Positions 17,740 to 60,611 of a DNA stretch of 64,000 bases are shown here, piece after piece. Both the position numbers and the translations under genes were made by a program. The notes below the pieces were generated by a model. It searched no databases. It was not told the DNA's origin and was given only the letters and a program-made list of their open reading frames with translations. The DNA is from Betaproteobacteria bacterium (lineage in GTDB: Bacteria > Pseudomonadota > Gammaproteobacteria > Burkholderiales > Casimicrobiaceae): assembly GCA_013298695.1 (NCBI GenBank), contig JAAFIS010000002.1, positions 340,935 to 404,934 of the forward strand, read 5' to 3'. Position 1 is the stretch's first letter; each line of letters begins with the position of its first letter.

Positions 17740-17823
17740 GCCCAATTAAATTGGGCGTTAAGGTGTCTTTTATCGTGTATTGTTATACCAATTTTCTAGC
17801 CACTTAGCCCTATTAAATTGGGC
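17740..17823. repeat. Paired-palindrome element, locus A
   Basis: Two copies of a 17-bp palindrome, GCCCAATTAAATTGGGC (17740-17756) and GCCCTATTAAATTGGGC (17807-17823), with centres 67 bp apart. The AT-rich spacer shows no ORF. The rest of the 237-bp gap between the secreted-protein gene and ruvA holds nothing else I recognise. The elements do not resemble intrinsic terminators. Together with locus B this brackets the sigma-factor cassette. Confidence 0.85.
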
Positions 17824-17840
17824 GTTCAGTAGAAAATCTG

Positions 17841-19079
17841 CTATCTAGATTTCCCTTCAGATTGAGCGAATCCAGAGGGGATTTGGAACTGCGCGGCGTC
17901 GGGCTCGCTGCGACGAATCTCGCTAATGCGATAGATGAATTCACCGCTGCGGGGATCACTGCGCTTCGAGTACACCATCATTTTCAGATCGGGAGAGAAA
18001 AAGCGTTCGTTGATGGTTTCGATGGCTCGGTTGTTTCCCATCGCTCCTGCCGGAATCGTTTCCACGCTGCGATCAACGTCCACTTTCAAGCCTTCGTAGA
18101 CGGCGTTAGTTTTTTCGCGAACCAGTTTTGCGTCTTTCACGCCCTTTGCCGCATCTGTGAGCGGTGTTCGAACGTTGGGTGGCGTCGGCGGTGTGGGCGG
18201 TGTCGGTGCCGTCGGAGGACTTGGGGGGCTAGGCGGCGCGGGCATGTCGTTTAGCGTCACACTGCGCCCGTCTGGGGAGACCTCGACGCGGCCCGGCCCG
18301 GAAGACGACCAGCTGAAGGTGCGCCCCGCACCACCGGCCGATTGACCGTGTGTGAGGTCAATGATCTTCGCACTGCTGCGAACGTTGACTTGCACGTCGT
18401 CTTTCGATGTCATCATCGGTATACCGTTGCGCCCGGCAGAGAATACGAACCCCAGCGGTTGCCAATCCCCACGCAGCTTCACAAAGCAATCGTTAATCGC
18501 ATCTCCGTCAAACGGTGCACTGCACGCCATGCGGCGCTGTGGATCAATGATGTGAGCGCGCTTGGCCACCGGATCATTAATGAACACTCTCGCGCTGCCG
18601 TCGGTTTGGCGCAACTCTTGCCGAGTGCGCCCTTCGCCATCACGCGCTAGAAGCCGAGTGCTCACGCGATTGATTTGGGTGCCATCGGACAGCGTTTGCT
18701 TGAATTCGCGAGTTTCGCGTGCTGAATAAGGATTGCCTTTTACGTTGGTTTCGCTGGTCGAAAGATTGAACGAGAAACTTCCGCGGCGATCAGCGTCTTC
18801 CAGCGCACGGCGCACGGTCTCGCGAATTTCAGTGACATCGACTTGCGCGACTGCGCGTTCGATCTCGGGGCCGAGCGCCTCAAGAGTTGTCAACGCAGTA
18901 TTTAGACTCGTGTCAACCAAATTGTGCAGACGCTCGGCGAATTTGTCGGCCGCCGCTTTCTCCGACCTCGCAGCCTTGGATTCGGTTTGCGCGTTCGCTC
19001 GCGGCGCAGCTGTCACGATGATTGCGGCCAATGTCGGAAATGCGATCGTCAACAACGATGCTTTTAGTTTCATGTTCAT
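17841..19079 (-). CDS. Secreted protein of unknown function, ECF-cassette member
   Basis: 412 residues. A signal peptide is clear (about 1-30, LLTIAFPTLAAIIVTAAPRANA). Then come a helical region rich in Ala and charged residues, a central beta-rich region (for example QTLSDGTQINRVSTRLLARD), a proline-threonine linker near 285-310 (repeated PP-S/T), and a C-terminal domain with KTNAVYEGLKVDVDRSVETI and FFSPDLKMMVYSKRSDPRSG. I do not recognise a family. The gene follows the anti-sigma candidate by 47 bp on the same strand, so it is probably made with the sigma pair and may be its effector or periplasmic sensor. It may be located in the periplasm. Confidence 0.75.
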   Translation of the reverse strand: MNMKLKASLLTIAFPTLAAIIVTAAPRANAQTESKAARSEKAAADKFAERLHNLVDTSLNTALTTLEALGPEIERAVAQVDVTEIRETVRRALEDADRRGSFSFNLSTSETNVKGNPYSARETREFKQTLSDGTQINRVSTRLLARDGEGRTRQELRQTDGSARVFINDPVAKRAHIIDPQRRMACSAPFDGDAINDCFVKLRGDWQPLGFVFSAGRNGIPMMTSKDDVQVNVRSSAKIIDLTHGQSAGGAGRTFSWSSSGPGRVEVSPDGRSVTLNDMPAPPSPPSPPTAPTPPTPPTPPNVRTPLTDAAKGVKDAKLVREKTNAVYEGLKVDVDRSVETIPAGAMGNNRAIETINERFFSPDLKMMVYSKRSDPRSGEFIYRISEIRRSEPDAAQFQIPSGFAQSEGKSR

Positions 19080-19126
19080 GGTTAACTCCTAAATCAGGTT
19101 TGCCATTGCGTCCACGTGCAGTTCAA

Positions 19127-19762
19127 TCACTGAAACTGCCAGCGCCAACGCTTCTGTTTTTCCGCTTCCACGAAACGAACCGCAAGCACTTCGCCCTGCC
19201 CGCCGATAAGCATTTCTGCTTTCACTGATTCGGCAAGTCGCTGCGGTGGTACGGGAATCCCAAAATCAAGCATTGCTTCGCGAGTCACGTTGACCCGCAA
19301 CATGTTCGAGACGTCGAGTGACGCGGTTTGCGGCGACGGATTGACGAGCATGAAAGGCGTTGCGACTTCAACGGATTCGCGGAAGAACGAAATCCAGAGC
19401 GGCGCAGAAGCGGTCGCGACCACCACCGTCGCCAGCGATCCTGCCAGCGCGGCCGACCAACGATTCGATGCGGCTTCGCGCAGCCAGCGAAACGCGGACG
19501 CGATCCGATCCACAGCTTGCACATGTTGCGCACGTTGCGCACGTTGCGAACATTGCAGCGTGGGTTGCGAGGCGGCCGCTGCCTCTCGGTGTGCAGCTTC
19601 GTGTGCGGCGCGCATTTGCGCCAAGGTCGACGCGGCAAGCGCCTGCGGGACGCTGCTGGCAAGATAGCTCGTGCGAACGTCGGCAAGCGCTGTGTCAAAC
19701 GCTGACTCTCGGTTCGCGGCGGTGCCGTCCTTGCTGTTTGTCGATGTGTCTGCGTCGCTCAT
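19127..19762 (-). CDS. Putative anti-sigma factor, single-pass membrane protein
   Basis: 211 residues. A soluble N-terminal part (about 1-95) precedes one membrane helix (about 103-125, SAALAGSLATVVVATASAPL) and a periplasmic C-terminal part ending VRFVEAEKQKRWRWQFQ. It overlaps the sigma gene by 4 bp, the usual layout of an ECF sigma factor and its anti-sigma. No CxxC zinc anti-sigma motif is seen, so the assignment rests on position and topology. Residues around 70-85 (SQRAQRAQHVQ) are encoded by a 9-bp tandem repeat. Confidence 0.7.
   Translation of the reverse strand: MSDADTSTNSKDGTAANRESAFDTALADVRTSYLASSVPQALAASTLAQMRAAHEAAHREAAAASQPTLQCSQRAQRAQHVQAVDRIASAFRWLREAASNRWSAALAGSLATVVVATASAPLWISFFRESVEVATPFMLVNPSPQTASLDVSNMLRVNVTREAMLDFGIPVPPQRLAESVKAEMLIGGQGEVLAVRFVEAEKQKRWRWQFQ
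19517..19560. repeat. Imperfect 9-bp tandem repeat inside the anti-sigma gene
   Basis: Five units on the plus strand: TTGCACATG, TTGCGCACG, TTGCGCACG, TTGCGAACA, then the partial TTGCAGCG. The central two units are identical. The unit length is a multiple of three, so gain or loss of units would add or remove three residues without shifting frame. It lies in the N-terminal cytoplasmic part of the putative anti-sigma factor, before the membrane helix. Confidence 0.8.
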
Positions 19763-20397
19763 ACTGCATTTCCCTCGTGAGCCAGAAAAAGTTCCGCAAG
19801 CGATTCTTTAAGGCGTGCACGCGCACGGCTTAGTCGCGAGCGGACCGTCCCGATCGGACAGCCGATGATCGCGGCAGCACTTTCGTAGCTGAATTCTTCA
19901 AATTCAATCAACACAATGACTTCGCGAAATTCGCACGGCAACTGACGGATAGCGGCGTGCAGCGCGGCTTCGCGTGACTGACGATCAAGCGCGGCAAAGC
20001 CATCCTCCGCGTGCGCGGGCAGCTCAGCGGCGTTGTGATCTGAGATCAAATTTCGCTCAATCGTTGCATCGTCGTCGACAAAAACAAGCCGCGAATCACT
20101 CGTCTGAATGCGCAGCACATGATTGCGTGCAACGCCGCAGAGAAGCGCAACCAAGGAGCCGCGCGCCGCGTCAAATTTGTGCGCGCCCGGACCGGCGAGC
20201 CAAATAAACGCTTCCTGCATCGCGTCGCTCGCGGCATCTTTCGACGTCGCAATCATTGATGCGAAGCGGAACACGGGAGCTGCGTGTCGGCGATAGATTT
20301 CATCGAGCGCGGCATACGCGTCTTCGCGCTCCGCCTTCGCGACGCGAGCAATTAAATCTTCATCAGAACAGTCGCTGAGCGCCCCCATAGCAACCAT
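19759..20397 (-). CDS. ECF-type sigma-70 family RNA polymerase sigma factor
   Basis: 212 residues. Region 2: DAYAALDEIYRRHAAPVFRFA through DAASDAMQEAFIWLAGPGAHKF. Region 4: LPCEFREVIVLIEFEEFSYESAA with the helix-turn-helix IIGCPIGTVRSRLSRARARL. No region 1.1 or 3 is seen, so it is group 4. It directs RNA polymerase to stress promoters once released from an anti-sigma, most likely the overlapping downstream gene. The start could also be the second ATG at 20388. Expected to activate its own promoter in the gap at 20398-20579, which also contains paired-palindrome locus B. Confidence 0.92.
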   Translation of the reverse strand: MVAMGALSDCSDEDLIARVAKAEREDAYAALDEIYRRHAAPVFRFASMIATSKDAASDAMQEAFIWLAGPGAHKFDAARGSLVALLCGVARNHVLRIQTSDSRLVFVDDDATIERNLISDHNAAELPAHAEDGFAALDRQSREAALHAAIRQLPCEFREVIVLIEFEEFSYESAAAIIGCPIGTVRSRLSRARARLKESLAELFLAHEGNAV

Positions 20398-20480
20398 TCT
20401 CGCTGGCCGCTTGGAAAGTTCCCAGCGGCGACTCTTTCGCCCAGGCGGGTGTGGAAAGATATTACCTTTACATGTGGAAA

Positions 20481-20561
20481 GCCCTAATTATTGGGCGACT
20501 TCCTAATTTTTATATTTTTCGTCATCTGACTAAACGTTACTGCTCGCCCAATCAAATGGGC
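20481..20561. repeat. Paired-palindrome element, locus B
   Basis: GCCCTAATTATTGGGC (20481-20496, imperfect) and GCCCAATCAAATGGGC (20546-20561), centres 65 bp apart, with an AT-rich spacer. Lies between the sigma-factor start and the end of ruvC. With locus A it forms a symmetrical bracket around the three-gene cassette. Confidence 0.8.
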
Positions 20562-20579
20562 GCTCAATTATCCGAGCCG

Positions 20580-21128
20580 TTAGATCAATCGCCCTGCGCG
20601 CTGTCTAACCTTTTGACTGGAAAGTAGCTCCGTAGCGATCGCGCCGAGTCCTTGCCGCGCGTGAGCGTGGGTAATCGCCGTTGCCAGCGCGTCGGCGGCG
20701 TCGGCCTGTGGCGTTGCAGCGAGTTTCAGCAGCCGCTTGACCATTTCCTGCACCTGCTCTTTCGCAGCCTTGCCGTGACCCACAACTGATTGCTTCACTT
20801 GCAGCGCGGTGTACTCAAACACCGGCACATCGCACAACACGGCAGCAGTGATCGCCGCGCCGCGCGCCTGCCCCAGCAGCAGTGTCGATTGCGGATTCAC
20901 GTTGACAAAGACCTTTTCAACGACGACGTCATCGGGTTTGTGGTGCGCGATGATCGACTGAATGTCGGTGGCGATTGTGCGCAATCGCATCGGAAGCGTT
21001 TCATCTGCATCAGAACGAATGCAACCGCTCGCCACATACGAAAGCTTCGAGCCGCTCGATTGGATCAAACCGAATCCCGTGACACGGAGACCGGGATCGA
21101 TGCCCAAGATGAGACGCGGAAGCGTCAC
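20580..21128 (-). CDS. ruvC: Holliday junction resolvase RuvC
   Basis: 182 residues. The catalytic acidic residues are recognisable: Asp in [14 protein letters not shown], Glu in VVVEKVFVN, and the C-terminal [13 protein letters not shown]. It also carries [12 protein letters not shown]. Cuts Holliday junctions bound by RuvAB. Its start overlaps the DUF2867 gene by 4 bp. ruvA is nearly 3 kb further on, past a cassette of three genes. Confidence 0.97.
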
Positions 21129-21652
21129 AACCTGGTTCTGTAGCGCGCAAGAATCGCCGGCACAATGCGCCGGTGCGCTGGGACAACCACTGCCATATAC
21201 GTGCGACCCAGCAAATTGTGAATGTGAACAACGGTAGTCACTTGTAGTGAAAGAATGCCATCTACGGCGGCTCTCCGAACCGACACTTTGGCGTCCAGAT
21301 GTCGATCCGAGTCGCCAAGAATGGCCTCGTCGAAACTATTGTGGTGCAATCCAAAAATGCCGATACGATCACCCACCGTATATTCGTCGACGGACTTGCC
21401 GCGCTCGATACTGCTGAGTGCTCCCAAGTTTTTGAGCCCGAACATCGAAACAACACGGTTGCGCGTTGCCATCATCGCTTCAATCCACTTTGGTGTTTGC
21501 GCAACAACGTCGAGATAAAGTGCGAGCGCAGACCGATCATCATCTGCCCCAATTGCAATCGAATAGGAATCGTGAAAATCTGCGCCACCGTAGAACGAAC
21601 TAATTGCAGCGTCGGTTGGCACCGGCACTTCTAGCTGTGGAAACTTCATCAT
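21125..21652 (-). CDS. DUF2867 family protein
   Basis: 175 residues. It matches the DUF2867 family by length and by the blocks [53 protein letters not shown] and a C-terminal [20 protein letters not shown]. No catalytic motif is known for this family and I infer no function. It overlaps both the YbjQ gene (4 bp) and ruvC (4 bp), so it is translated from the same message. Confidence 0.85.
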
Positions 21653-21996
21653 ATTTTTACCGCTGTGCCAGAAACGGCCACCATCATCATGCCGTTAGTT
21701 TCGCCCAGCACCTCGTAGTCAAAATCGATCCCGATAATGCCATTCGCGCCAAGCTCTTTTGCGGACGCGACCATATCGTCCATCGCGGCGTCGCGCGCAC
21801 TTTTTAGCGAGCGCTCATAGCCGCCCGCGCGGCCGCCGACAACATCGCGAACCGACGAGAACATGTCACGAAAAATATTGGCACCGATGATGGCGACGCC
21901 ATTGACGACGCCCAAGTATTCGACGACGACAACACCGTTCGACGGCACAACGGTTGAGAGAAAAAACCCCTCGTCCTTCTTTGAAAACCAGCCCAT
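21649..21996 (-). CDS. YbjQ/DUF74 family protein
   Basis: 115 residues. The family's glycine pattern is clear: YLGVVNGVAIIGANIFRDMF, then GGRAGGYERSLKSARDAAMD and ELGANGIIGIDFDYEV. Related proteins form pentamers and are described as heavy-metal-binding, but this has little direct support. The gene lies 88 bp after yebC on the same strand. Confidence 0.9.
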   Translation of the reverse strand: MGWFSKKDEGFFLSTVVPSNGVVVVEYLGVVNGVAIIGANIFRDMFSSVRDVVGGRAGGYERSLKSARDAAMDDMVASAKELGANGIIGIDFDYEVLGETNGMMMVAVSGTAVKI

Positions 21997-22084
21997 GCTT
22001 TACTCCAATGGTGTTCGGGATTAATTTCGTCGTGCGAGACGTTCTCGACGATAAAGCTTGTTTCTTACTAGCCGGATAGCTTAA

Positions 22085-22810: not shown

Positions 22811-22868
22811 AGTTTCTTGCAGCGGTTGGCTGCCCGTATTGTGTTGCGCTGATTTTAGAACTGCTTGT

Positions 22869-31589: not shown

Positions 31590-31660
31590 GCAAGGCAGTA
31601 TACCGACGATAACGCGGCTTTGCAGAAGCCCGAACGCGGCTACAAGTAACTCATTATTTC

Positions 31661-31743
31661 GCAGTATTTATTGGGCTAATGCGTGCATTCACTGAGTTAT
31701 CAATAAATACGTTTTACGGCTTTGCCACCCAATTAAATTGGCT
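31661..31743. repeat. Paired-palindrome element, locus C (degenerate)
   Basis: Left copy is half-decayed (GCAGTATTTATTGGGC, 31661-31676); right copy is CACCCAATTAAATTGGCT (about 31726-31743), missing one G. Centres are about 66 bp apart. Lies upstream of kdsD, in the gap to the BON gene. Confidence 0.7.
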
Positions 31744-31776
31744 ATTAGCATAGATTGTTGCTGCTATGAAAACTAG

Positions 31777-41587: not shown

Positions 41588-41908
41588 TTTTTGACTCCTC
41601 GTCAATACATTCGTTGTTTGCGCCGCACTTAGTTCAGCCCCAGCTTTATCGCTGTTTTGAGCAACCCCTCGTTTCGTAGGGCGAATGTCGTCGATTGCAA
41701 TGGAGCCGTCAATGAAGCGCCCGAAACGTGACGAAAAATCTGAGTCGTCAGCCTGCGTTTTGCCGTAACTACGGACTGCAAGCACGCAAACGAACGCATC
41801 GGTTGGGCGTCATTTTTTATTGGGCGAGCGTGTCGGCAAAACTATTTCTCGAGTTACCCGCTTTCTTGAATTTAGCCCGCGTTCAATCGCCAATGTTGGA
41901 CTTAGCTG
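41588..41908. other. Non-coding gap without recognised features
   Basis: A 321-bp gap between the end of hemW and the start of the HHH gene. It contains two TTGGGCG words 19 bases apart near 41803-41825, of which the second has an AT-rich left flank like half of the dispersed palindrome, but no partner at 66 bp. A 69-codon ORF is possible but has no ribosome site or family resemblance. Confidence 0.5.
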
Positions 41909-43882: not shown

Positions 43883-43894
43883 AACGATCAACTT

Positions 43895-43967
43895 GTAGGC
43901 GCGGGCTTGACCGCGCTCGGGTGAATCACTCGCGGCTTGCGCGAAGCGCGGTCAAGCCCGCGCCTAC
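43895..43967. repeat. REP-like inverted repeat 2 (yceH-rdgB gap)
   Basis: Perfect 22-bp arms at 43895-43916 and 43946-43967 (left arm begins GTAGGCGCGGGCTTGACC) around a 29-bp loop. It fills almost the whole gap between the yceH start and rdgB stop. Confidence 0.92.
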
Positions 43968-44567: not shown

Positions 44568-44574
44568 CAGGTAT

Positions 44575-44640
44575 TGTAGGAGCGGCTCTGCCGCGATTGG
44601 CGGTAGCCAGACGCGAAATCGCGGCAGAGCCGCTCCTACA
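44575..44640. repeat. REP-like inverted repeat 3 (rdgB-rph gap)
   Basis: Perfect 24-bp arms at 44575-44598 and 44617-44640 (TGTAGGAGCGGCTCTGCCGC at the left), 18-bp loop. The GTAGGAGCGGCT start resembles REP sequences known from Pseudomonas and Xanthomonadales genomes. Confidence 0.93.
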
Positions 44641-44645
44641 GTTTC

Positions 44646-45394: not shown

Positions 45395-45499
45395 TAGGTC
45401 GCGATCTTATTGCGCCGTTCGTTCGCAGCGCAACGCGTGGTTGCGTATTTTTTGCCGAGCAGTGTGCGCGGAGACTTGGCGCAATAAGATTGCGCCCTA
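45395..45499. repeat. REP-like inverted repeat 4, supplies the epimerase stop codon
   Basis: Arms of 22 bp, 20 matching, at 45395-45416 (TAGGTCGCGATCTTATTGCG) and 45478-45499. The right arm covers the stop codon TAG of the epimerase gene (45497-45499). Loop of 61 bp. Confidence 0.85.
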
Positions 45500-46468
45500 A
45501 AGCGATCTGGCCATCAACTCCAACTCAATTTCACTGTCCGCAAATCCATCAAACCCCGCTTCACGCAAACCACTTGCATCAAGCTCCCAACTATCGAGCA
45601 GTTGCTGCGCGATACGACGTTGCCCCATAGCAATCATCGCAGCACGCAGTAAGACAGGTGGCACACCCATATTCGTCGAGCGCGACTTCATCCCCCTTGC
45701 AATTGCATTCACCATCGCCGTCGTTGAGATCGATTCACGATCGGTCGGATGCCAAATCGACACAGGTGTGTCATCTCGTTGCACACGATCTACACACCAA
45801 AAGATAGCCGAGATCAAACCGCGAATAGAGACCATTGAACGACGATTGTGAATCGCGCCAAACGGAATAGGCAAGCGCTTATCGCTCAACGTCGCGATGA
45901 GTTTTGCGAGTCGAATCATGTTGCCCGGTGCGCCAGCACCATAGACGACAGGTGGTCGCAAAATATGCACATCATCGCCCAACTTAATTGGGCGATCAAT
46001 CAATATTCGCTCCGCCTCAACTTTTGATTTTCCATAACCACTCGCCCAATTTAATTGGGCGTATATTGAAATAGCTAGTGCGTTGACGTGATCACCGTAT
46101 ACCGCCGCAGAACTCAAAAAAATGAAGCGCTTCACACCCGCGTCGCGCGCTGCGTTTGCGATGAGTTCAGTAAGCACGACGTTCTCGCGATGCATCGCCT
46201 CCGCGCTCGCGTTCGCATCGTGAACGCGAGCCGCGCAATGAATGATTGTGTCAACGTTGCGCAGTCGGCTCACCCATTCGGCATGATCGAGCGCGTGATA
46301 GTCGCCGACGAACTGCCAGGTTAGCAATTCACGCGCGGCGGTCGGCAGCTTCGATAACGTTTTGCTCGCGGGCTGCGTAGAAAGCGCAACCACTTTGCGC
46401 CCTTGTTTGATCGCCTCGCCGACACAATGCGCGCCGACGTAGCCCGAGGCGCCAGTGACTGCGATCAA
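45497..46468 (-). CDS. NAD-dependent sugar epimerase/dehydratase (SDR)
   Basis: 323 residues from TTG 46468, which overlaps the glycosyltransferase stop as TTGA with GGAGAAG upstream; the frame is open to 46660 but only from here does it match the family (LIAVTGASGYVGAHC, Rossmann glycine motif). The active-site motif is SGYGKSKVEAERILI, and LRPPVVYGAGAPGNMIRL is the substrate-side block. Similar enzymes act on UDP- or GDP-sugars for surface polysaccharide. Two copies of the dispersed palindrome are encoded within it on each side of the YGKSK codons, without changing the normal family length. Confidence 0.9.
   Translation of the reverse strand: MIAVTGASGYVGAHCVGEAIKQGRKVVALSTQPASKTLSKLPTAARELLTWQFVGDYHALDHAEWVSRLRNVDTIIHCAARVHDANASAEAMHRENVVLTELIANAARDAGVKRFIFLSSAAVYGDHVNALAISIYAQLNWASGYGKSKVEAERILIDRPIKLGDDVHILRPPVVYGAGAPGNMIRLAKLIATLSDKRLPIPFGAIHNRRSMVSIRGLISAIFWCVDRVQRDDTPVSIWHPTDRESISTTAMVNAIARGMKSRSTNMGVPPVLLRAAMIAMGQRRIAQQLLDSWELDASGLREAGFDGFADSEIELELMARSL
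45977..46060. repeat. Paired-palindrome element, locus D (inside a gene)
   Basis: GCCCAACTTAATTGGGC (45977-45993) and GCCCAATTTAATTGGGC (46044-46060, perfect in its outer arms), centres 67 bp apart. Both lie in the coding sequence of the epimerase, in different codon phases: the second encodes AQLNWA, the first RPIKLGD. The DNA between them encodes the conserved active-site segment. Confidence 0.9.
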
Positions 46469-47268
46469 AACAGCTTCTCCACAATGCGCGGATCCCGCCA
46501 GCGCCAACCGTGTTTGTTGAAAAGTTTCACCAGCGAAACGATCGTTACCCAGGTGAGTTTCCACGAGCGATGCGAGCCGCGAGCCCAGTCGTGCGTGACG
46601 CGCGCTTGCGGCACGTAGAGCGCCCGCCCGATGTCTCTCGCGCGCAGTGTGATGTCGCAATCTTCAAAATACAGAAAGAATCGCTCGTCGAATCCTCTCA
46701 AGCGAACGAACGCATCCCGCCGAAAAAACATGAGCGCGCCCGACATGAACTCGGGCTCAAGAAATTTCTCGTAATCCTCGTCGCGCATCTCGAAATAATC
46801 AGCATCCACATTTAAATTAAACCAATCAGCGAGCGAACGAGAAAGAAAACGCCGCGCAATCAAAGCGCGAATCGTCGGATAACGTTTGCAGAGCAATTGC
46901 CGTTCGCCGTTCGGGTGAAACAGTGCTGGCGCGACAAGCACCGTTTCGCGATCTTTTTGCAGCGTGCGAATTAGATGTTGAATTGCATCGGGCTCGAAGC
47001 GAATGTCCGGATTAATCGCGGCGTGAAATTCCGCCTCCGGGAGTAGCGAAAAAGCGAGGTTTTGCCCGTTGCCAAAACCCGCATTGCCATTTGGATTTAA
47101 CTCGTAGCGAAACTTCGGGAACCGCGCGACGAGCGCCTTCGCTTGATCCGAATTGCCGTTATCAACGACGATCCCTTGCACAAAGTCGCCGCTGTGCTCG
47201 CACGAGGCAAGCGCTGCTTCAAGCGCAGGTAAGCGCGGGTCGTAAATGACAATGGCGGCGGTCCACAT
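46465..47268 (-). CDS. Family 2 glycosyltransferase
   Basis: 267 residues from ATG 47268 (MWTAAIVIYDPRLPALEAAL); the frame is open further up, but there it would run into the promoter region of the divergent surface-protein gene. GT-A fold blocks are IVVDNGNSDQAKALVARFPK, NGNAGFGNGQNLAFS, the acidic INPDIRFEPD and FMSGALMFFRRDAFVRLRGF with DERFFLYFEDCDITLRARD. Resembles rhamnosyl- and related transferases of O-antigen synthesis. Coupled to the epimerase by a TTGA overlap. The two are an isolated pair, not a full polysaccharide cluster. Confidence 0.9.
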   Translation of the reverse strand: MWTAAIVIYDPRLPALEAALASCEHSGDFVQGIVVDNGNSDQAKALVARFPKFRYELNPNGNAGFGNGQNLAFSLLPEAEFHAAINPDIRFEPDAIQHLIRTLQKDRETVLVAPALFHPNGERQLLCKRYPTIRALIARRFLSRSLADWFNLNVDADYFEMRDEDYEKFLEPEFMSGALMFFRRDAFVRLRGFDERFFLYFEDCDITLRARDIGRALYVPQARVTHDWARGSHRSWKLTWVTIVSLVKLFNKHGWRWRDPRIVEKLF

Positions 47269-48896: not shown

Positions 48897-48928
48897 CTGC
48901 CTTTTTCAATACAACTTTTTATGTTATC

Positions 48929-49010
48929 GCCCACGTAAAATGGGCGATAACGTGTTTTTAGTAGCTTGTTGATAACCGATCTAATTGCATCTTCGCCCGA
49001 TTTATATGGC
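48929..49010. repeat. Paired-palindrome element, locus E
   Basis: GCCCACGTAAAATGGGC (48929-48945) extended by flanking TTATC/GATAA to a longer hairpin, and the weaker GCCCGATTTATATGGC (48995-49010). Centres 66 bp apart. Located in the 288-bp gap between the surface-protein gene and the PLP-enzyme gene, which converge here. The rest of the gap shows nothing certain. Confidence 0.75.
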
Positions 49011-49184
49011 TTCTCACCTGAGAGGCTGGTTTGAAAGTTCAGCGCAACTTTGCCGGAGCCCAGCGGCTCGCATGTGAGTTTTCGTTGCACGACGAATTCG
49101 CGAATAGATGCCGTGTTGCGGCGAAACGTACGGGAACCCGGATGCGAGCATCTGGGCTACGCGGGAACAAATGTGCCGCTTTGG

Positions 49185-51727: not shown

Positions 51728-51731
51728 GAAT

Positions 51732-52000: not shown

Positions 52001-52879
52001 TTGTCCTCATTTCTCGCCAAACTCAGTCATCGCCTCGCAACCTGGCTTGCACGGCAACCCCTTGCGCGCCAAGCGCGGATTGGCGCTTGGTTAGGCCGCA
52101 AAATGTTGTGGTCGAGCGGGATGCAAAACCGATTGACTGACAACCTCACCACCGCGCGCTATGTTGATCGTGTTTCTCTGCGCGACGTCGCTGAGGCCGC
52201 TGGCCAGTTAGCGATAGAAACTGTCGCATTGTGGAAGACACCCGACGAAGTGGTGCTTTCGAGAGTGCGCGCCGTCTACGGTTGGGATCAAGTACTCGCA
52301 ATTCGCGACTCAGGTCGCGGCATCATTTTTCTCACGCCGCACTTGGGCACGTTTGAAATAGCCTCGCTCTACATCGGCGCTCAAATGCCAATGACCGCAA
52401 TGTTTCGCAAGCCGCGCGTTGCATGGGCCGAGCCGATGATGCGCGAGGGTCGTGATCGGCTTCAGATTAAGTCAGTACCCGCAGACATGAGCGGCGTTCG
52501 AGCCATGCTCAAAGCGCTGCGCCGTGGTCAGCCGATTGGACTGTTGCCTGATCAAGTGCCGACCCAAGGTGATGGCGTGTGGGCACCTTTTTTTGGGCGA
52601 CCCGCATACACCATGACCTTAGTGCAAAAAATGGCGCGCACCACGCAAAGCGCCGTGGTGATGGTCGCGTGTAAACGCTTGAGCGGTGGCGGAGGCTATG
52701 AGCTTCGGTTTGAAGTCGTTCCGGCGTTTTCATATGCCCCTGAAGTGGCGAGCGCCGAGCTCAATGCTGCGGTTGAGCGCGCCATTGACACCGCGCCCGC
52801 GCAGTATCTTTGGACGTACAACCGATACAAAGTGCCTTCGACCACGCCTGACTCCGATTCTTCTACGATCATCCTTTAA
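52001..52879 (+). CDS. Lipid A biosynthesis lauroyl/myristoyl acyltransferase (LpxL/HtrB family), first copy
   Basis: 292 residues from TTG 52001; only CTG lies between this and an in-frame stop at 51968. The HX4(D/E) active site is HLGTFE in IIFLTPHLGTFEIASLYIGA, followed by MFRKPRVAWAEPMMREGRDR and IGLLPDQVPTQGDGVWAPFF. Adds a secondary acyl chain to KDO2-lipid IVA at the inner membrane. The second copy starts one base after this stop, so the two are a translationally linked pair. Divergent from metK. Confidence 0.92.
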   Translation: MSSFLAKLSHRLATWLARQPLARQARIGAWLGRKMLWSSGMQNRLTDNLTTARYVDRVSLRDVAEAAGQLAIETVALWKTPDEVVLSRVRAVYGWDQVLAIRDSGRGIIFLTPHLGTFEIASLYIGAQMPMTAMFRKPRVAWAEPMMREGRDRLQIKSVPADMSGVRAMLKALRRGQPIGLLPDQVPTQGDGVWAPFFGRPAYTMTLVQKMARTTQSAVVMVACKRLSGGGGYELRFEVVPAFSYAPEVASAELNAAVERAIDTAPAQYLWTYNRYKVPSTTPDSDSSTIIL

Positions 52880-52880
52880 A

Positions 52881-53771
52881 ATGACGGTATCCGGTCGTTT
52901 AATTGAGATAGCGAGTAAAGCACTCAACTTGCTGCCCGCCCAATTTAATTGGCGTTTAAGCATAGTAGTCACTTGGCTAGGCTGGCATCTCGCTCGATCA
53001 CGTCGGCGGATTGCTCTGATCAATCTGCAGTTGTGTTTTCCCGAGAAAACCGACGCGGAGCGCACCGTGATCGCGCGCGAACATTTCCGCGCCTACGTGC
53101 AAGCCGCGCTCGAACATGGCTTTTTGTGGAACGCTTCCGGTAAAGCAATTCGCGAGTACGTTTCGTTGCACGACGAGCATCATTGGAAACGATTTCGCGA
53201 GATCGACCCGCAGCGCCCGGTGATTTGGTTGTGCCCCCATTTCATCGGGCTTGACGCGGCAGCGATCCGCATTTCGGTCGACACGTCGGGATGCTCGATT
53301 TACAGCGAACAAAGCAATCCTGATCTCGATGCAATGATGCTCGCAGGGCGAACGCGGTTTGGCGAATCAAAAATCATCGCGCGCACCGAAGGCGTAAAAC
53401 CGATCATCCGTGCGATGAAATCGGGGCTACCGTTCTACTATTTGCCGGATATGGACTTTGGTTTGCGTGACTCAGTGTTCGTACCGTTTTTCGGTGTGAA
53501 CGCCGCAACGATTACCGGCGTGTCACGGCTCGCAAAGCTCACCAACGCAGCAGTCGTTCCGGTGATTGCAACCCAAAGAGCCAATGGATCGGGTTACGAC
53601 GTGCGTTTTTATCCCGCATTTGAAAATTTTCCTTCAGGCGATGATGTTGCCGATGCGCGCGCGGTGAATGAATTTATTGAACAACGAATTCGCGAGAACG
53701 TCGCGCAGTATTTGTGGACGCATAAGCGGTTTAAAACGCGGCCACCGGGTGAGCCGAGTGTTTATCAATGA
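52881..53771 (+). CDS. Lipid A acyltransferase (LpxL/HtrB family), second copy
   Basis: 296 residues from ATG 52881, immediately after the first copy's stop; an earlier in-frame start would lie inside that gene. HX4D site is HFIGLD in VIWLCPHFIGLDAAAIRISV; also ALINLQLCFPEKTDAERTVI and LPDMDFGLRDSVFVPFFGVN. Probably adds the other secondary acyl chain. A single copy of the dispersed palindrome lies at codons 20-25 (encoding AQFNW) in the N-terminal part. Confidence 0.93.
   Translation: MTVSGRLIEIASKALNLLPAQFNWRLSIVVTWLGWHLARSRRRIALINLQLCFPEKTDAERTVIAREHFRAYVQAALEHGFLWNASGKAIREYVSLHDEHHWKRFREIDPQRPVIWLCPHFIGLDAAAIRISVDTSGCSIYSEQSNPDLDAMMLAGRTRFGESKIIARTEGVKPIIRAMKSGLPFYYLPDMDFGLRDSVFVPFFGVNAATITGVSRLAKLTNAAVVPVIATQRANGSGYDVRFYPAFENFPSGDDVADARAVNEFIEQRIRENVAQYLWTHKRFKTRPPGEPSVYQ
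52938..52953. repeat. Single palindrome copy inside the second acyltransferase (locus F)
   Basis: GCCCAATTTAATTGGC, matching the family core with one G lost on the right. No clear second copy 66 bp on either side; the sequence around the start codon at 52879 is weakly similar. It falls in a variable part of the protein (LPAQFNWRLS). Confidence 0.7.
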
Positions 53772-54837: not shown

Positions 54838-54938
54838 CGAAGGCTACAACGCGCTACGGCACAACAGCTAACGGCTCCCACTCCTGCGGCTAACCCCCAA
54901 GATCAGCGACCTGGTGCCATTCGGTGAATAATCGTTAA

Positions 54939-56087: not shown

Positions 56088-56165
56088 TTCATCGCGTTCG
56101 ATTTGGATGCGGTAGCGAACGCACAAAATGCATTGGACAAAACGGATTGACTATTTCTCTGTAGC

Positions 56166-56247
56166 GCCCATTTACTTGGGTTGAAGCTCATTTACACGCG
56201 TCTATCGATCAGTCCACTTTATGGTCATATCGCCCAATTTACGCGGC
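56166..56247. repeat. Paired-palindrome element, locus G
   Basis: GCCCATTTACTTGGGT (56166-56181) and GCCCAATTTACGCGGC (56232-56247), both imperfect, centres 66 bp apart. Lies in the 226-bp gap between convergent glycerate kinase and BLUF genes. Confidence 0.72.
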
Positions 56248-56313
56248 GTCGTAAGCGCAGCGCCGCCTACGATTTCTCCGTTGATAACCGTCGTGGCGTT
56301 GGTTCCACAGGTG

Positions 56314-56745
56314 TCAGGCGCGAAGCTCGGTTCTCTCGGTGCGCTCGCAAAGCTCTTCTATAACGTTTTCGATCAAATCACTTTCGACCAGATACGGATT
56401 GAATCCTTTGCCATCGCGCCAACGCGATGACTCGGGCGCGGCGGAGGAAAGCTCAGTGGAATAGCCCATGTGCCACTCGGGAAACAGTCGCCGCCACGGC
56501 TCGGTATAGCGCAAGAGTGTGGCGCCAGCGTGACGCGGGTCCGAGGCGATTTTGTTGTACAGCGCGTTTACGTCTTCACGCTCACCTTCTAGGCACTGCA
56601 GCGCGTAGTTCGGCGAAATACACAAATACCCGGTAACGCCGTTGCGACTGTTGTTGCGCTCAGACGCGGCAAGGATTTGTTGAATATTGGCTTTGTTCAG
56701 CGGCTCGTGAAGACGGCTCGCGTAGATCAATCGTACAAGTTTCAT
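56314..56745 (-). CDS. BLUF-domain blue-light photoreceptor, second copy
   Basis: 143 residues from ATG 56745 (MKLVRLIYASRL), with GGGAG five bases upstream; the open frame further up has no family match. Tyr8, Asn32 and Gln50 have the same 24/18 spacing as AppA. Blocks RNGVTGYLCISPNYALQCLE and RRLFPEWHMGYSTEL fit, including the Met near the flavin. No attached output domain. Only about 40 percent alike to the first BLUF protein by eye, so not a recent duplicate. Confidence 0.93.
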   Translation of the reverse strand: MKLVRLIYASRLHEPLNKANIQQILAASERNNSRNGVTGYLCISPNYALQCLEGEREDVNALYNKIASDPRHAGATLLRYTEPWRRLFPEWHMGYSTELSSAAPESSRWRDGKGFNPYLVESDLIENVIEELCERTERTELRA

Positions 56746-56968
56746 GGGCACTCCCAACTGCAATGCAACACGACGCGATGGTCGTGCGTTTTCCCCATTT
56801 TGATCGCCGTGGCTATCGATCGACGGTTGTCCGCTGTATTCAATTCGCGACATGAAGACGCCGTGCCGCGACACACTTGATTGCTCAAATACAAACTAAA
56901 GTCTACGGCGCGTAAGGCTGGACACGCTAGCCGTAGACAAGCGCGTTCTTGTTCAACGTTTGCGCGAG

Positions 56969-57673
56969 TTATTTGGCCTTTTTCACGCCAAAAAGTATTC
57001 GACTCGCTTCGTCGTTGGGCGCGGTAGGTGGTGCGTTGAGGCTCTTCACAATGTCGTACGCGCGAATCGTGGCGGGGCGCGCCTTAATCGCCTCGAACCA
57101 GCGCTTTAGGTGCGGGAAATCGTTCAAATTCATTCCTTGGCGCTCATGCGGAACGATCCACGGGTAACACGCCATATCGGCAATCGAATACGCGCCTGCT
57201 AAAAATTCTCGATCAGCCAAACGATGATCCATCACGCCGTACAAACGCGCGGTTTCATTCTTGTAGCGATCCATCGCATACGGGATTTTTTCCGGCGCGT
57301 AGAGGTTGAAATGATGATTTTGCCCGGCCATCGGCCCCAACCCACCCATCTGCCAAAACAACCATTGAATGGCTTCTTTACGCCAATACGCGTTTTTGCG
57401 ATCGAGAAATTTCTTCGATTTATCAGCGAGATACATAAGGATTGCGCCGCTTTCAAAGAGCGTGAGCGGATCGCTGTTTGGCATTGCCTGCATCGGCTTG
57501 TGATCAACGATAGCTGGGATGCGATTGTTCGGCGCGATCTTTAAAAATGCCGGATCAAACTGCGCGCCCTTGCCGATGTTTACCGGCAGCACGCGATATT
57601 TCGCGCCCATCTCTTCAAGCATCATCGTCACTTTGTGGCCGTTCGGTGTCGTCCAGTAATACACGTCAATCAT
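56969..57673 (-). CDS. Glutathione S-transferase family protein (YfcG-like)
   Basis: 234 residues. Thioredoxin-fold N-domain MIDVYYWTTPNGHKVTMMLE, NRIPAIVDHKP and LFESGAILMYLADKSKK; the helical C-domain contains WLFWQMGGLGPMAGQNHHFN, the YfcG/YghU signature. These enzymes act as disulfide-bond reductases with glutathione. Cytoplasmic; the substrate is not known. Confidence 0.93.
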   Translation of the reverse strand: MIDVYYWTTPNGHKVTMMLEEMGAKYRVLPVNIGKGAQFDPAFLKIAPNNRIPAIVDHKPMQAMPNSDPLTLFESGAILMYLADKSKKFLDRKNAYWRKEAIQWLFWQMGGLGPMAGQNHHFNLYAPEKIPYAMDRYKNETARLYGVMDHRLADREFLAGAYSIADMACYPWIVPHERQGMNLNDFPHLKRWFEAIKARPATIRAYDIVKSLNAPPTAPNDEASRILFGVKKAK

Positions 57674-57904
57674 GAAAAATCCTTGTCCAAAAAAAGCAAA
57701 CTATCCAAGTCGGCCGTGCCCACAGCCCGGATCCGCGCGCCAAGCAACCGTGGCGCACGCCGCGGCCAACGCGGCTTAAACTAGGTGAGGCATTGTCAAT
57801 GAATTGCAACACCTTGTCATCCAAACGCATCGCCCGCGCGTGAATGGCTTGAAAACAGCGCAATTCGCCCTCAGTATTCGGTAACACCTCTACGAAAGAC
57901 ATCG

Positions 57905-58216
57905 ATGCCAGCAGCTCACGTCGCACGTCTCATCCCCGCGCTTGCGGAACGCCCTTCGCTCCACGACACATTGGCCATCGCCATGAACGATGCGAGCTAT
58001 GTGCAGATAGACGAAGCCGTGTTCTCCGCTGATTACCTCCACGCGCCCGACGAGTACACGCGCCCGGATGATGTGCTGGTGGAAGGGACTGCTGACGACA
58101 CCGAGCTGCTGCTTCTGCAGCGCGACTTCGAGGGCGCAACCCTCGATGACGACGGCGACATCGTTTTGCTAGACGGCACCGTAGTGCGATTCCTACGCTC
58201 GGCAATGGTGCACTGA
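57905..58216 (+). CDS. Acidic hypothetical protein
   Basis: 103 residues, rich in Asp/Glu (for example EYTRPDDVLVEGTADDTELL and ATLDDDGDIVLLDGTVVRFL). I recognise no family. Coding is plausible because the reading frame is long, acidic and compact, and it is followed after 88 bp by the DUF1190 gene on the same strand. No signal peptide. Confidence 0.6.
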   Translation: MPAAHVARLIPALAERPSLHDTLAIAMNDASYVQIDEAVFSADYLHAPDEYTRPDDVLVEGTADDTELLLLQRDFEGATLDDDGDIVLLDGTVVRFLRSAMVH

Positions 58217-58304
58217 GCGACGCCCCTGCGAGCTCTAGCGCGGCGAAAGCGTTGCGCGGCAAGCGCACCCGTGCAAGAATCAAACGGGAGGCGCGACTAC
58301 AGCA

Positions 58305-58823
58305 ATGGACGACAAACAACGACCGCACGATCACGACGCGTTGCAATCCGCGAACGATCAGCCACGCTCTAACGAGCGTAACTCTGCAAACAGTGCTTCG
58401 CCGAATCGCGCGAAGCCAGCGAGAAGCGGAAGCGTCGCGTCGCCCAAGCCGCGCCGAAGTAAACAACTCACGTTAATTTTTATAAGTGCTGCGGCCGCTG
58501 CGAGTCTGGCCGGTTGCGGTCGCCTAGAAAACGAAGGTGGAACCAGCCGCGATGTTTACGCCAATCTCGAAGAGTGTCGCGCAGACTGGGGCAACCCAGA
58601 AGACTGCGAAGAGATCGATGAAAAGCGATCAGCCACCGGCGCTCGATCGTTTTACGGCCCACGGTATACGTCACGTACCGGAACCTCTGGCGGCTATACC
58701 TCCATGCCGCGCCCAGGCTCGCGCTCTAAAGGGACAGTGTCGAGCGGCGGCAGCTCCTCGCGCGGTGGGTTTGGATCATCCAGCTCGCGCCACGGCAGCA
58801 GCGGCCATTCGACCTCCGGTTAG
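58305..58823 (+). CDS. DUF1190 (YgiB-like) lipoprotein
   Basis: 172 residues. An unusually long polar N-terminus (1-53) precedes a short hydrophobic stretch and the lipobox SLAGC with Cys71. Then come VYANLEECRADWGNPEDCEE, the DUF1190 block, and a Gly/Ser-rich C-terminus. The order DUF1190, glutathionylspermidine-synthase-like, DUF350 matches the ygiB-ygiC type cluster. The long leader before the lipobox may mean a downstream start or a retained cytoplasmic tail. Confidence 0.8.
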   Translation: MDDKQRPHDHDALQSANDQPRSNERNSANSASPNRAKPARSGSVASPKPRRSKQLTLIFISAAAAASLAGCGRLENEGGTSRDVYANLEECRADWGNPEDCEEIDEKRSATGARSFYGPRYTSRTGTSGGYTSMPRPGSRSKGTVSSGGSSSRGGFGSSSSRHGSSGHSTSG

Positions 58824-58925
58824 CGGGTAGCGCCTCCTGTTCCGTCTACCGCGTTTCTCAATCCGATCACTCTTTATTGCTTTTTCGATGTCGACACTCT
58901 TTCTCATTTCAATGAAACACTGGTC

Positions 58926-60053
58926 ATGAAACGTGAGCGCTGCGCCGTGCGCCCCGAATGGCGCAAACGTTGTGAAGATGCAGGATTTAGCTTTCATTCA
59001 ATCGACGGCGTTTATTGGGACGAAGGTTATTGCTATCGCTTCACTTCCGCGCAGATTGATGATTTGGAGCACGCGACCAACGAGCTGCATCAGATGTGCA
59101 TGCAGGCAGCAGAGCACATCATCGTCAAAGAGCGGTTTGCCGAGCTCGCCATTCCCCAGCCCGCGTGGGCCCTCATTCGCGAGAGTTGGGATGAAGATCA
59201 TCCGTCATTGTTTGGTCGATTCGATTTGGCTTGGAATGGAAGCGGGCCGCCCAAACTGCTCGAATACAACGCCGATACGCCAACCAGTTTGATCGAGGGT
59301 AGCGTTGCACAGTGGCATTGGCTTGAAGATGTGAAGCCGGGAGCCGACCAATTTAATTCATTGCACGAAAAACTAATCGCGCAGTGGCAGTGGCTTAAGT
59401 CTGAGCACGGATATAAGCACGTTCATTTCACGTGTGCGGCTGATAGTGAAGAAGACGGCGGCAACCTCGACTATTTGCGCGACACAGCGATGCAAGCCGG
59501 TATTGAAGCACCGTGGATTTCGATTGAAGAAATCGGCTGGAACGAATTGCAGCTTGCGTTTACCGACCTCGACGAAGCGCGGATTGAGACTTTGTTCAAA
59601 CTCTATCCGTGGGAGTGGATGCTCGCTGATGAGTTCGGTAACAATCTTCGCAAAACTAAGATGCGAGTAATCGAGCCCGCATGGAAAATGGTCCTAGCGA
59701 ACAAGGGGTTGTTGCCAATTTTATGGGAGCTGTATCCCAATCACCCTTTGCTCTTACCCGCGTCATTCGATCGCCACAAAGTGCTGGGCGACTACGTAAA
59801 GAAACCGCTTCTTTCCCGCGAAGGCGCGAACGTCGAAATCTACAAAGGTGGCGAAGTGATTCGCGCTGATGGAACTTACGGGGAAGAAGGCTTCGTCTTC
59901 CAGCAATACACGCCGATCCCAAACTTTGATGGCAACTTTGTCACGATTGGCTCCTGGATCATCGGCGACGAACCTGTGGGCATTGGCTTGCGCGAAGACG
60001 CCACAGAAATCACAATGAATACCTCGCGCTTTTTGCCGCATTATTTTGAATAA
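58926..60053 (+). CDS. Glutathionylspermidine synthase-family ATP-grasp enzyme (YgiC-like)
   Basis: 375 residues. Blocks include DEGYCYRFTSAQIDDLEHAT, FGRFDLAWNGSGPPKLLEYN with DTPTSLIEGSVAQWHW, YPWEWMLADEFGNNLRK and the ATP-grasp end VKKPLLSREGANVEIYKGGE. This matches the C-terminal synthetase half of GspSA without the amidase domain. Such stand-alone proteins have not been shown to make glutathionylspermidine; the true substrate is open. Lies between DUF1190 and DUF350 genes. Confidence 0.92.
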   Translation: MKRERCAVRPEWRKRCEDAGFSFHSIDGVYWDEGYCYRFTSAQIDDLEHATNELHQMCMQAAEHIIVKERFAELAIPQPAWALIRESWDEDHPSLFGRFDLAWNGSGPPKLLEYNADTPTSLIEGSVAQWHWLEDVKPGADQFNSLHEKLIAQWQWLKSEHGYKHVHFTCAADSEEDGGNLDYLRDTAMQAGIEAPWISIEEIGWNELQLAFTDLDEARIETLFKLYPWEWMLADEFGNNLRKTKMRVIEPAWKMVLANKGLLPILWELYPNHPLLLPASFDRHKVLGDYVKKPLLSREGANVEIYKGGEVIRADGTYGEEGFVFQQYTPIPNFDGNFVTIGSWIIGDEPVGIGLREDATEITMNTSRFLPHYFE

Positions 60054-60076
60054 CTGACCCCTACTAAAGGCCACGT

Positions 60077-60490
60077 ATGAGCTACACCATCGGTGAATCC
60101 ATCCGCTACATCGACGATTTCTTGATTTACTTCGGGCTCGCATTGGCGCTGTTCGTCGCCTTCGTCTTCATCTATACCGCGGTGACGCCGTATAAGGAAA
60201 TGAAGTTGATTCGCGAGGGCAACACGGCCGCGTCGGTCTCGCTTTTCGGCGCGATGATCGGTTTCGCACTGCCGCTTGCAAGTGCGGTTGCCAATGCAAC
60301 CAACGTGATCGACATGTTGATCTTCGCGGTCGTCGCGACCGTCGCGCAAATCGTTGTGTTTGTCGTTGCGCGCATGGTGTTGCCCGGACTCTCAGGCTCA
60401 ATCGAAGACAATAACACCGCAAAGGCCACGTTCCTGGCAGCGATTTCCATATCGGTTGGCATGCTTAACGCAGCAGCACTGGTGTATTAA
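60077..60490 (+). CDS. DUF350 membrane protein
   Basis: 137 residues, four membrane helices. It opens near the membrane with RYIDDFLIYFGLALALFVAF and carries REGNTAASVSLFGAMIGFAL, the DUF350 signature. It follows the ATP-grasp gene by 23 bp. Function unknown; the combination recurs in many proteobacteria. Confidence 0.9.
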   Translation: MSYTIGESIRYIDDFLIYFGLALALFVAFVFIYTAVTPYKEMKLIREGNTAASVSLFGAMIGFALPLASAVANATNVIDMLIFAVVATVAQIVVFVVARMVLPGLSGSIEDNNTAKATFLAAISISVGMLNAAALVY

Positions 60491-60528
60491 TTCGCTGTTC
60501 TGCATGACACTGGCTCTCGCCGCTTAAC

Positions 60529-60611
60529 GCCTATATAGCTGGGCGATAGTCTAACTTCGACGCATTATTGATTATCGAGAAAATGCTCAGCTCGCCCCAT
60601 TTAAATAAGGC
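60529..60611. repeat. Paired-palindrome element, locus H
   Basis: GCCTATATAGCTGGGC (60529-60544) and GCCCCATTTAAATAAGGC (60594-60611), both imperfect, centres 66 bp apart. The inner spacer shares the string TTGAT-x-A-x-CGA with locus E. Lies in the 252-bp gap between DUF350 and the metalloprotease; no other feature seen. Confidence 0.72.

Follow-up and report, generated by a model that had tools for sequence, protein, structure and literature searches.

Dispersed two-fold symmetric sites of ~120-140 bp, built around paired palindromes, in a Casimicrobiaceae chromosome

Sites in the window

The window, i.e., the whole 64-kb stretch of DNA analysed here, carries dispersed copies of a palindromic 19-mer, one pair of them within the reading frame of an NAD-dependent epimerase (Table 1). 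With up to 3 mismatches the 19-mer was matched 11 times, against 0.08 expected, and none of 100 shuffles reached 11. A sequence-only reading of this DNA had described seven places at which two palindromes stand at a fixed distance and an eighth with a single copy. All seven pairs were located, with a spacing of 66 or 67 bp, and the supposed single copy was found to have a decayed partner. The pairing and its fixed spacing stand, but the pair is not the whole unit: the palindromes are the visible portion of a larger, two-fold symmetric site of ~120-140 bp. The string TTGAT-x-A-x-CGA noted in two of the spacers is the conserved centre of the site.

Table 1. Features located in the 64-kb window (positions are those of the window)
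Feature	Position	Strand	Palindromes	Profile score and remarks
Half site	4737..4795		4753, one good palindrome, no partner	halves 39.8 and -12.3
Weaker site	12040..12157		weak pair at 12056	33.7 (halves 11.7 + 22.0); beyond the range of the sequence-only reading
Symmetric site	17723..17840		17739/17806, spacing 67	84.2 (halves 42.6 + 41.5); best in the window
Symmetric site	20463..20579		20479/20545, spacing 66	54.3
Symmetric site	31643..31760		31659/31726, spacing 67	63.7
Weak decayed site	41792..41908		spacing 66	26.9
NAD-dependent epimerase reading frame	45497-46660	minus		encloses the site at 45960..46077
Symmetric site	45960..46077		45976/46043	64.0; wholly within the epimerase frame
Symmetric site	48912..49028		48928/48994, spacing 66	68.5
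Site with decayed left palindrome	52854..52971		52870 (decayed)/52937	44.2 (halves 10.6 + 33.6)
Symmetric site	56148..56265		56164-5/56231	53.6
Symmetric site	60511..60628		60527/60593-4	45.9

Abundance and anatomy

Across the genome, the 19-mer with up to 3 mismatches yielded 218 forward and 216 reverse hits, and a reversed-sequence control yielded none. In 864 kb of the genome (800 kb plus the window) the same search gave 70 hits, against 0, 1 and 0 in three Markov controls, and the only pair distances between 4 and 300 bp were 67 bp (9 pairs) and 66 bp (1 pair), which is the sharp peak that the sequence-only reading had envisaged. At up to 6 mismatches there were 372 hits, against 171-179 in the controls, with distances of 67 (40), 66 (11) and 65 bp (2), and every other distance occurred at most twice. 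A search with a symmetric profile (score of at least 25) found 157 sites in the 864 kb and none in a Markov control; extrapolation gives ~740 sites per genome, in line with the hundreds that had been predicted. In a relative, G005, a profile refined on one 400-kb stretch recovered 27 and 26 sites at a score of at least 20 in two others that had played no part in the refinement, the controls giving 0.

Within a site the order is an AGCTTT box, the palindrome, an A/T box and the centre TTTATCGATAAA, followed by the mirrored half, so that end boxes flank the palindrome pair and a conserved centre joins it. The pooled half-site profile is symmetric by construction, and symmetry was checked separately on single sites: both halves scored at least 10 in 134 of 157 sites of the window's own genome (G000) and in 82 of 85 sites of G005. 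GGG is near-invariant in the site sets of both genomes. Each half-site carries 34.1 bits of information in G005, 26.7 in G000 and 21.9 in G002, of which 17.8, 11.6 and 9.4 bits, respectively, are base-specific, a share too large for DNA bending to be the whole code. The A/T content is periodic at ~9.8 bp, close to the helical repeat, and the periodicity reaches 60-70 bp either way from the site centre. The strongest period is 9.9 bp in G000 and 9.7 bp in G005, while in G002 9.9 bp is second to 23.5 bp, and a rival peak at 7.8-7.9 bp is almost equally strong in all three. This phasing resembles that of DNA wrapped around a protein, and the sites may be wrapped in the same way.

Placement along the chromosome

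Site spacing is more regular than chance placement would produce. The coefficient of variation (CV) of the spacing is 0.59 in G000, against 1.03 for random placement, and 0.37 in a first stretch of G005 and 0.65 in G002, against ~1.0. The lowest values among 300 random sets, all of which kept the coding/non-coding split of the sites, were 0.87 (G000), 0.64 (G005) and 0.75 (G002). Over 1.2 Mb of G005, leaving aside one gap of 105 kb, the CV is 0.48, and gaps below 4 kb make up 1% of the total against 29% expected. Evenness is lower in two more stretches of G005, with CVs of 0.59 and, with the 105-kb gap included, 1.32; all G005 gaps pooled give 0.90. Mean gaps between sites are 5.5, 5.8 and 11.3 kb. 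The sites are mostly extragenic, with 33 of 145 (score of at least 30) lying inside genes, though ~91% of the DNA falls within greedy ORF calls. Convergent gene ends are enriched and divergent ones depleted (p = 0.0024 in G000 and 0.088 in G005). The site-free 105-kb stretch of G005, a single case picked as the largest gap, carries conjugation and Tn3 genes, and ~9 sites would be expected in it. PMC7811141 attributes the same three features, namely regular spacing, few occurrences in acquired DNA and a tendency to avoid genes, to DNA uptake sequences as well.

Taxonomic range

Among the family genomes searched, sites were found only in this genus, and their dialects differ by species. With the G000 model, 5 of 17 genus genomes (G003, G007, G008, G012 and G016) give 0 to 6 rows; the G005 model, applied to three of these five, raises the counts of G012 and G008 and leaves G016 at 0. 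In a sample of 40 relatives, the 19-mer with up to 2 mismatches hit eight genomes, two of them outside the genus at one lone place each. The strict 19-mer was absent from the viral contigs searched. Outside the genus it occurred in 16 stretches of a genome-contig collection, three of which share DNA of G002 or G009 loci; the other 13 are unrelated and lack a second palindrome at the characteristic spacing. A T-run follows the 19-mer in several of the unrelated genomes, an arrangement that is terminator-like.

Alternative explanations

The sequence-only reading had offered a mobile element with palindromic ends, a two-site target of a DNA-binding protein and paired RNA hairpins as possible explanations. 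A mobile repeat family of the REPIN or MITE kind, now decayed, is suggested by hundreds of copies, palindromes, fixed length and intergenic preference, but the sites show almost no sign of copying. The mean pairwise identity of 120 sites is 64.85 of 166 columns, against 64.80 after column shuffling. There is a small excess of similar pairs, with 66 pairs sharing at least 80 columns against 25.8 in shuffles and 9 sharing at least 85 against 1.6, but none reaches 90. Left and right ends of one site are likewise near the shuffled identity, with peak z values of 3.7 and 3.0 at two adjoining palindrome positions of 73. Sites inside genes do not look inserted. Residues 66-298 of the epimerase protein align with positions 1-233 of the Pfam Epimerase profile with no net insertion, and the site in this gene is clearly kept in the G009 orthologue and weakly in that of G014. 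Among 14 intragenic sites checked against Pfam, seven overlap a domain match, five lie outside any match and two are in proteins without one. Five of the seven are wholly inside the match (Epimerase, Hydant_A_N, ABC_tran, TsaD and, for a weak site, cNMP_binding) and two partly (NTP_transferase and Lip_A_acyltrans); an insertion of ~40 residues is absent from all seven, the match lengths being within 5 residues of the profile. The loci corresponding to one G005 site in G011, G012 and G004 have no site at the matching place, and one G012 locus has a weak hit (score 12.9) elsewhere; nearby sequence differs too, so that this comparison is neutral as to origin. The genome does contain one REP-type (Y1) transposase gene, but its 3.4-kb locus has a different REP and no palindrome hit at up to 5 mismatches; because the only Y1_Tnp gene found adjoins REPs of its own, a RAYT link was rejected. 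Together with the absence of sites from the 105-kb stretch with conjugation genes, these results make a mobile origin very improbable. Transcription terminators or structured RNA appear just as implausible. The palindromes could form hairpins, and the enrichment at convergent gene ends and the T-run after the 19-mer elsewhere would suit a terminator; however, RNAalifold predicted no pairs on 70 sites, opposing positions show little or no covariation once base composition is accounted for (highest z 2.9), the sole Rfam match in the window at the gathering score is a tRNA, and the fixed double-palindrome spacing and the boxes are unlike a terminator. The remaining option of that reading, a target of a DNA-binding protein with more than one site, fits.

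Two rivals concern the identity of such a reader. The sites might be strong chromosomal gyrase sites, bound and wrapped by gyrase itself and cleaved at the 4 bp in their centre, in which case even spacing and enrichment at convergent ends would serve the removal of positive supercoils. The E. coli gyrase motif, as described in PMC6379681, spans 130 bp, is symmetric about a 4-bp cut and has arms with a GC periodicity of 10.75 bp; its extent and symmetry about match those of the sites. The A/T profiles rank the annotated cut of phage Mu at 121 (G000), 233 (G002) and 865 (G005) of 36,581, and within 6 bp all three peak exactly on the cut centre. On the Mu right arm the A/T ranks are 234 (G000) and 106 (G002) of 73,154, but 2,698 with the G005 profile, and on the left arm 4,992, 13,176 and 12,321. 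The full base profile ranks the Mu cut only 820, 868 and 15,233 of 36,577. In a pSC101 scan the top centre shifts with the dialect profile used. Gyrases of three species favour -4G and -2A at the cut, according to PMC12324340, whereas the sites most often carry A or T at -4 in each of the three dialects and, at -2, T in two of them (G000 and G002) and A only in G005. One type IIA A subunit is present in 10 of 11 genus genomes (G006 has two pieces, apparently of one), and a second, ParC-like A subunit was not found in these 11; but 4 of 5 other family genera tested also have one A subunit, yet no sites. GyrA has the ordinary layout, and G000 and G005, despite their different dialects, share 91% identity in its C-terminal domain. 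Because neither the core bases nor the base-specific profile fits, gyrase was retained as a rival and not as the complete explanation; we consider this rival unlikely, though less so than any other alternative to the reading that we prefer. Among known candidates for the wrapping engine gyrase is the best, but it is probably not the reader of the site-specific bases. Alternatively, the reader could be a machine for DNA uptake or transfer, with the sites accumulating through molecular drive as in Haemophilus and Neisseria. Evolution in place, even spacing, absence from acquired DNA, gene avoidance and species dialects all fit, and PMC7811141 describes uptake sequences as scarce in new segments and coding sequence and relatively even in distribution. 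The uptake sequence modelled there is 31 bp long and recurs ~1 kb apart on average. An uptake signal would not be expected to take the form of a 120-140-bp dyad with a centre, and mean gaps here are several-fold longer. ComEC is present, but in all 11 genomes tested, including four without model-detected sites, so its presence does not discriminate. We regard this explanation as distinctly improbable, more so than gyrase.

Proposed role

The reading that we favour, if only slightly, is that the sites are wrapping targets of a putative two-fold symmetric, chromosome-organising protein complex and evolved in place. Each site would be a double-stranded DNA target that arose where it is located through base changes and that positions a symmetric complex, around which ~120-140 bp may be wrapped. 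Along the host chromosome such complexes would recur at average intervals of 5-12 kb, for the most part in intergenic DNA and with convergent gene ends over-represented, and may serve to structure the chromosome or to control its topology. More tentatively, and on the doubtful side, the sites could form a genus-specific, chromosome-wide lattice of high-information wrapping sites of ~140 bp, read by a dedicated putative protein, alone or with gyrase. If this is true, the lattice would be a bacterial counterpart, programmed in the sequence, of positioned nucleosomes or marked domains, and hundreds of sites would switch dialect together between species without copying.

Bacterial chromosome domains of ~10 kb are generally considered to lack fixed borders coded in the sequence. 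The genomes studied here have hundreds of long symmetric sites at intervals of that order, and the whole set varies with the species. Identifying the reader would reveal how point mutation creates and revises a whole genome's sites of ~45-70 bits each (double the per-half value). It would also supply a natural map on which to examine how chromosomes are shaped by wrapping proteins, including gyrase. Judged by titles and abstract openings, none of the open-licence papers found on evenly spaced sites, gyrase-site arrays or paired palindromes describes such a site system.

Comparison with known systems

The sites share features with several known systems. REP, BIME and REPIN elements with their RAYTs are likewise dispersed palindromes, many per genome and mostly extragenic, but the sites here carry hardly any signal of copying, have no cognate transposase that we found and show no insertion. 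REPs also carry a GTAG foot, which is not among the conserved boxes of the sites. The Haemophilus USS and Neisseria DUS are similar in being present in hundreds, in place, relatively evenly, poorly represented in genes and acquired DNA, and divided into species dialects; the sites here differ in their length of 120-140 bp, in their two-fold symmetry, in having a centre as well as end boxes, and in recurring every 5-12 kb on average. With the E. coli gyrase motif and the Mu strong site they have in common a length of ~130 bp, symmetry and near-helical A/T-G/C phasing, the Mu cut being in phase, but the E. coli motif is degenerate, whereas these sites hold 22-34 bits per half, have another core, are evenly spaced and are limited to one genus. 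Finally, matS and parS are dispersed targets of architectural proteins, as the sites here may be of a putative one; they are single short palindromes, present in tens of copies and restricted to a single chromosomal region, unlike the long, multi-part sites described here.

Anatomy and symmetry of the sites

The palindromes of the window (bases 340935-404934, contig 12 of a 4.08-Mb assembly with 22 contigs) belong to a longer structure. Genome-wide, the 19-mer has 218 matches on one strand and 216 on the other with up to 3 mismatches, and the reversed 19-mer, used as a control, has none at the same tolerance. The analysis of the source genome, G000, covered 864 kb (the window and 800 kb more, 21% of the genome); there, neighbouring matches with up to 3 mismatches lie 67 bp apart in 9 pairs and 66 bp apart in 1, with no other distance between 4 and 300 bp, bearing out the fixed spacing of paired palindromes claimed in the sequence-only reading.

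Further conserved boxes emerged when 94 half-sites, each oriented from the outside inward, were pooled (see table). In the 864 kb, an iterated symmetric profile identified 159 sites at a score of at least 22 and 157 at 25 or more, with no sites at a score of at least 12 in one third-order Markov control; by extrapolation the whole genome would hold ~740. At scores of at least 20 the palindromes are spaced by 67 bp in 132 sites, 66 in 26, 68 in 5, and 65 and 69 in 1 each, the score being slightly biased toward 67. The symmetry of individual sites is real: each half scores at least 10 in 134 of the 157 sites, and the end box, in any of four allowed forms, is present on both sides in 86, on one side in 54 and on neither in 17, as against both sides in just 7 sites when a control position 40 bp further outward is scored.

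Elements of the site and other features of the window
Feature	Sequence	Position	Strand	Basis
End box	AGC(T)	-15 to -12 before palindrome		pooled half-sites
Palindrome	GCCCAATTTAATTGGGC	inward of end box		pooled half-sites
A/T box		about 11-15 bp from centre		pooled half-sites
Centre	TTTATC	other half is the mirror image		pooled half-sites
Multi-match stretches		window 43892-43967, 44574-44643, 49129-49161, 50467-50511		matches in genus relatives
tRNA gene		window 63898-63969	minus	sole Rfam match at gathering score in window

Distribution and dialects

Sequence models were built from G000 (R1) and from G005, a genome of the same genus (R2). R1, at an E-value of 0.001, matched 15 of 17 genus genomes; among the matches listed, with both strands counted, ten genomes have at least 120-150, two have 41-46, three have 1-6 and two have none. 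Outside the genus, R1 matched none of 43 family genomes at E 1e-5 with stricter filters. R2 matched 8 of 9 genus genomes and none of 31 others. Two genomes poor in R1 matches, G012 and G008, yield 50 and 24 with R2, respectively, and G016 yields none with either model. As far as these searches within the family extend, the sites appear to be a genus trait with species-specific dialects. The G005 dialect has the centre AAGTCGACTT and ends CAGCTTTTT, and that of G000 has the centre TTTATCGATAAA. Between the dialects of G000, G002 and G005 the A/T pattern agrees with r of 0.90, 0.80 and 0.73, whereas the choice of A or T at shared A/T positions agrees less (0.76, 0.44 and 0.45); for the choice of G or C at shared G/C positions, r is 0.57, 0.97 and 0.73.

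Sites inside genes and relatedness among sites

The site at 45976 falls within an epimerase reading frame, whose residues 66-298 match positions 1-233 of the Pfam Epimerase profile at equal length. Alignment to a solved SDR enzyme is gapless across the first palindrome in reading direction and ends before the second, and alignment to three orthologues is gapless across the entire site. The G009 orthologue retains a site at the same place (spacing 67, score 32.6); a weak one, scoring 10.0 by the G000 profile and 24.3 by that of G002, is seen in the G014 orthologue, and none in that of G010. Identity between G000 and G009 at this site is 31/44 in informative and 33/68 in uninformative columns; for G014, on the matching strand, the values of 25/44 and 41/68 do not differ. 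Fourteen intragenic sites were checked against Pfam: five lie wholly within a match (Epimerase, Hydant_A_N, ABC_tran, TsaD and cNMP_binding, the last a weak site of score 21.5), two partly within one (NTP_transferase, Lip_A_acyltrans), five beyond any match, and two in proteins without a match. At the seven domain-overlapping sites the match is at most 5 residues longer or shorter in the protein than in the profile, so none of these carries an insertion of ~40 residues. Judged from these alignments, the sites appear to have evolved in place.

The sites show hardly any copying. Among 120 G000 sites (spacing 67, score at least 30, best orientation), mean pairwise identity is 64.85 of 166 columns vs 64.80 after column shuffling; no pair reaches 90, and 66 pairs reach 80 vs 25.8 expected, a small excess. 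Corresponding means are 72.8 vs 72.3 for G005 (27 sites) and 59.6 vs 59.4 for G002 (53 sites). Within a single site, the two halves resemble each other no more than shuffled halves do, apart from a few positions; the highest z values (3.7 and 3.0) both lie within the palindrome. Covariation of facing palindrome positions is weak at best (top z 2.9), and RNAalifold predicted no pairs from 70 sites.

Placement along the chromosome

The greedy, length-based calling of reading frames used here gives too many genes (91% of DNA). On these calls, the 145 G000 sites scoring at least 30 comprise 33 within reading frames and 39 in convergent, 61 in tandem and 12 in divergent gaps, compared with 76, 198 and 79 such gaps (p 0.0024). 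The 89 G005 sites comprise 11 within reading frames and 30, 33 and 15 in the respective gaps, compared with 100, 174 and 101 (p 0.088). Sites are spaced more evenly than under random placement with the same coding/non-coding split, for which the coefficient of variation is about 1.0: it is 0.59 over 153 gaps in G000 (mean 5.5 kb), 0.65 over 63 gaps in G002 (mean 5.8 kb) and 0.37 over 33 gaps in the first stretch of G005 (mean 11.3 kb). Two other G005 stretches are less even (0.59, and 1.32 with a large gap included), and all G005 gaps pooled give 0.90, or 0.48 once the large gap is removed.

This gap (C1:110268-215391, 105 kb), picked as the largest in G005, contains no sites where ~9 were expected over its full length (Poisson chance of none 1.2e-4, uncorrected for that choice). 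It carries genes for TraG_N, a TraG-D_C coupling protein, a topoisomerase, ParA, a Tn3 transposase and a resolvase, has ordinary-looking genes at both edges, and is by appearance an integrated conjugative element. The gap also encodes a helicase of the SNF2 type and a DNA methylase, perhaps as a defence island on the integrated element.

Other repeats and genes

The window stretches with many matches in relatives (see table) are probably other dispersed repeats, REP-like in kind. The sole Y1 transposase gene found in G000, RAYT-like (L045:1384-1905; C1, about 100 kb), is adjoined by REPs of another kind, GTAGGGTGGGCAC..GTGCCCACC, and by an ORF which we take to resemble an IS110-type transposase. 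In Flavobacteria-like MAGs the 19-mer of the paired palindromes occurs as a lone hairpin (locus L087 at 1947, 3300 and 4945, and loci L095 and L098), mostly with T-rich DNA after it in the manner of a terminator; these hairpins are unrelated to the paired sites. The genus genomes tested among G000 to G021 show one type IIA topoisomerase A subunit, with no second (ParC-like) subunit seen, and four of five other genera tested in the family likewise have one.

Probable DNA wrapping and comparison with known systems

Measured outward from the centre, A/T content in G000 peaks at about 3.5, 13, 23, 34, 43, 54, 60 and 67 bp, reaching background past about 70 bp; the peaks of other dialects are much alike, G005 lacking the last. 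A period of 9.9 bp ranks first in G000 and one of 9.7 bp in G005, and in G002 a 9.9-bp period is second to one of 23.5 bp; a peak at 7.8-7.9 bp is close behind in all three. Such phasing would reflect DNA that curves around a protein along 120-140 bp.

Gyrase is a possible wrapper. The E. coli gyrase motif, as given in PMC6379681, agrees with the sites in size, symmetry and phasing. Among 36,581 positions of phage Mu, the A/T profiles of G000, G002 and G005 rank the annotated cut at 121, 233 and 865 (218, 423 and 1,781 with composition removed), and within 6 bp each has its maximum exactly at the cut centre. However, full base profiles place the cut at 820, 868 and 15,233, the Mu left arm is unremarkable in the ranking, and the core bases known for gyrases (PMC12324340) are unlike the site cores. 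GyrA itself is ordinary, its C-terminal domain being 91-97% identical between G000 and G005, G002, G009 and G012. Wrapping of the sites is therefore likely and gyrase as the wrapper possible, and a dedicated protein may read them. As far as the distribution of the sites goes, accumulation driven by DNA uptake is a serious rival explanation. Compared on defining features with a REP/MITE, an RNA hairpin, a strong gyrase site and an uptake sequence, the sites fit none of them fully.
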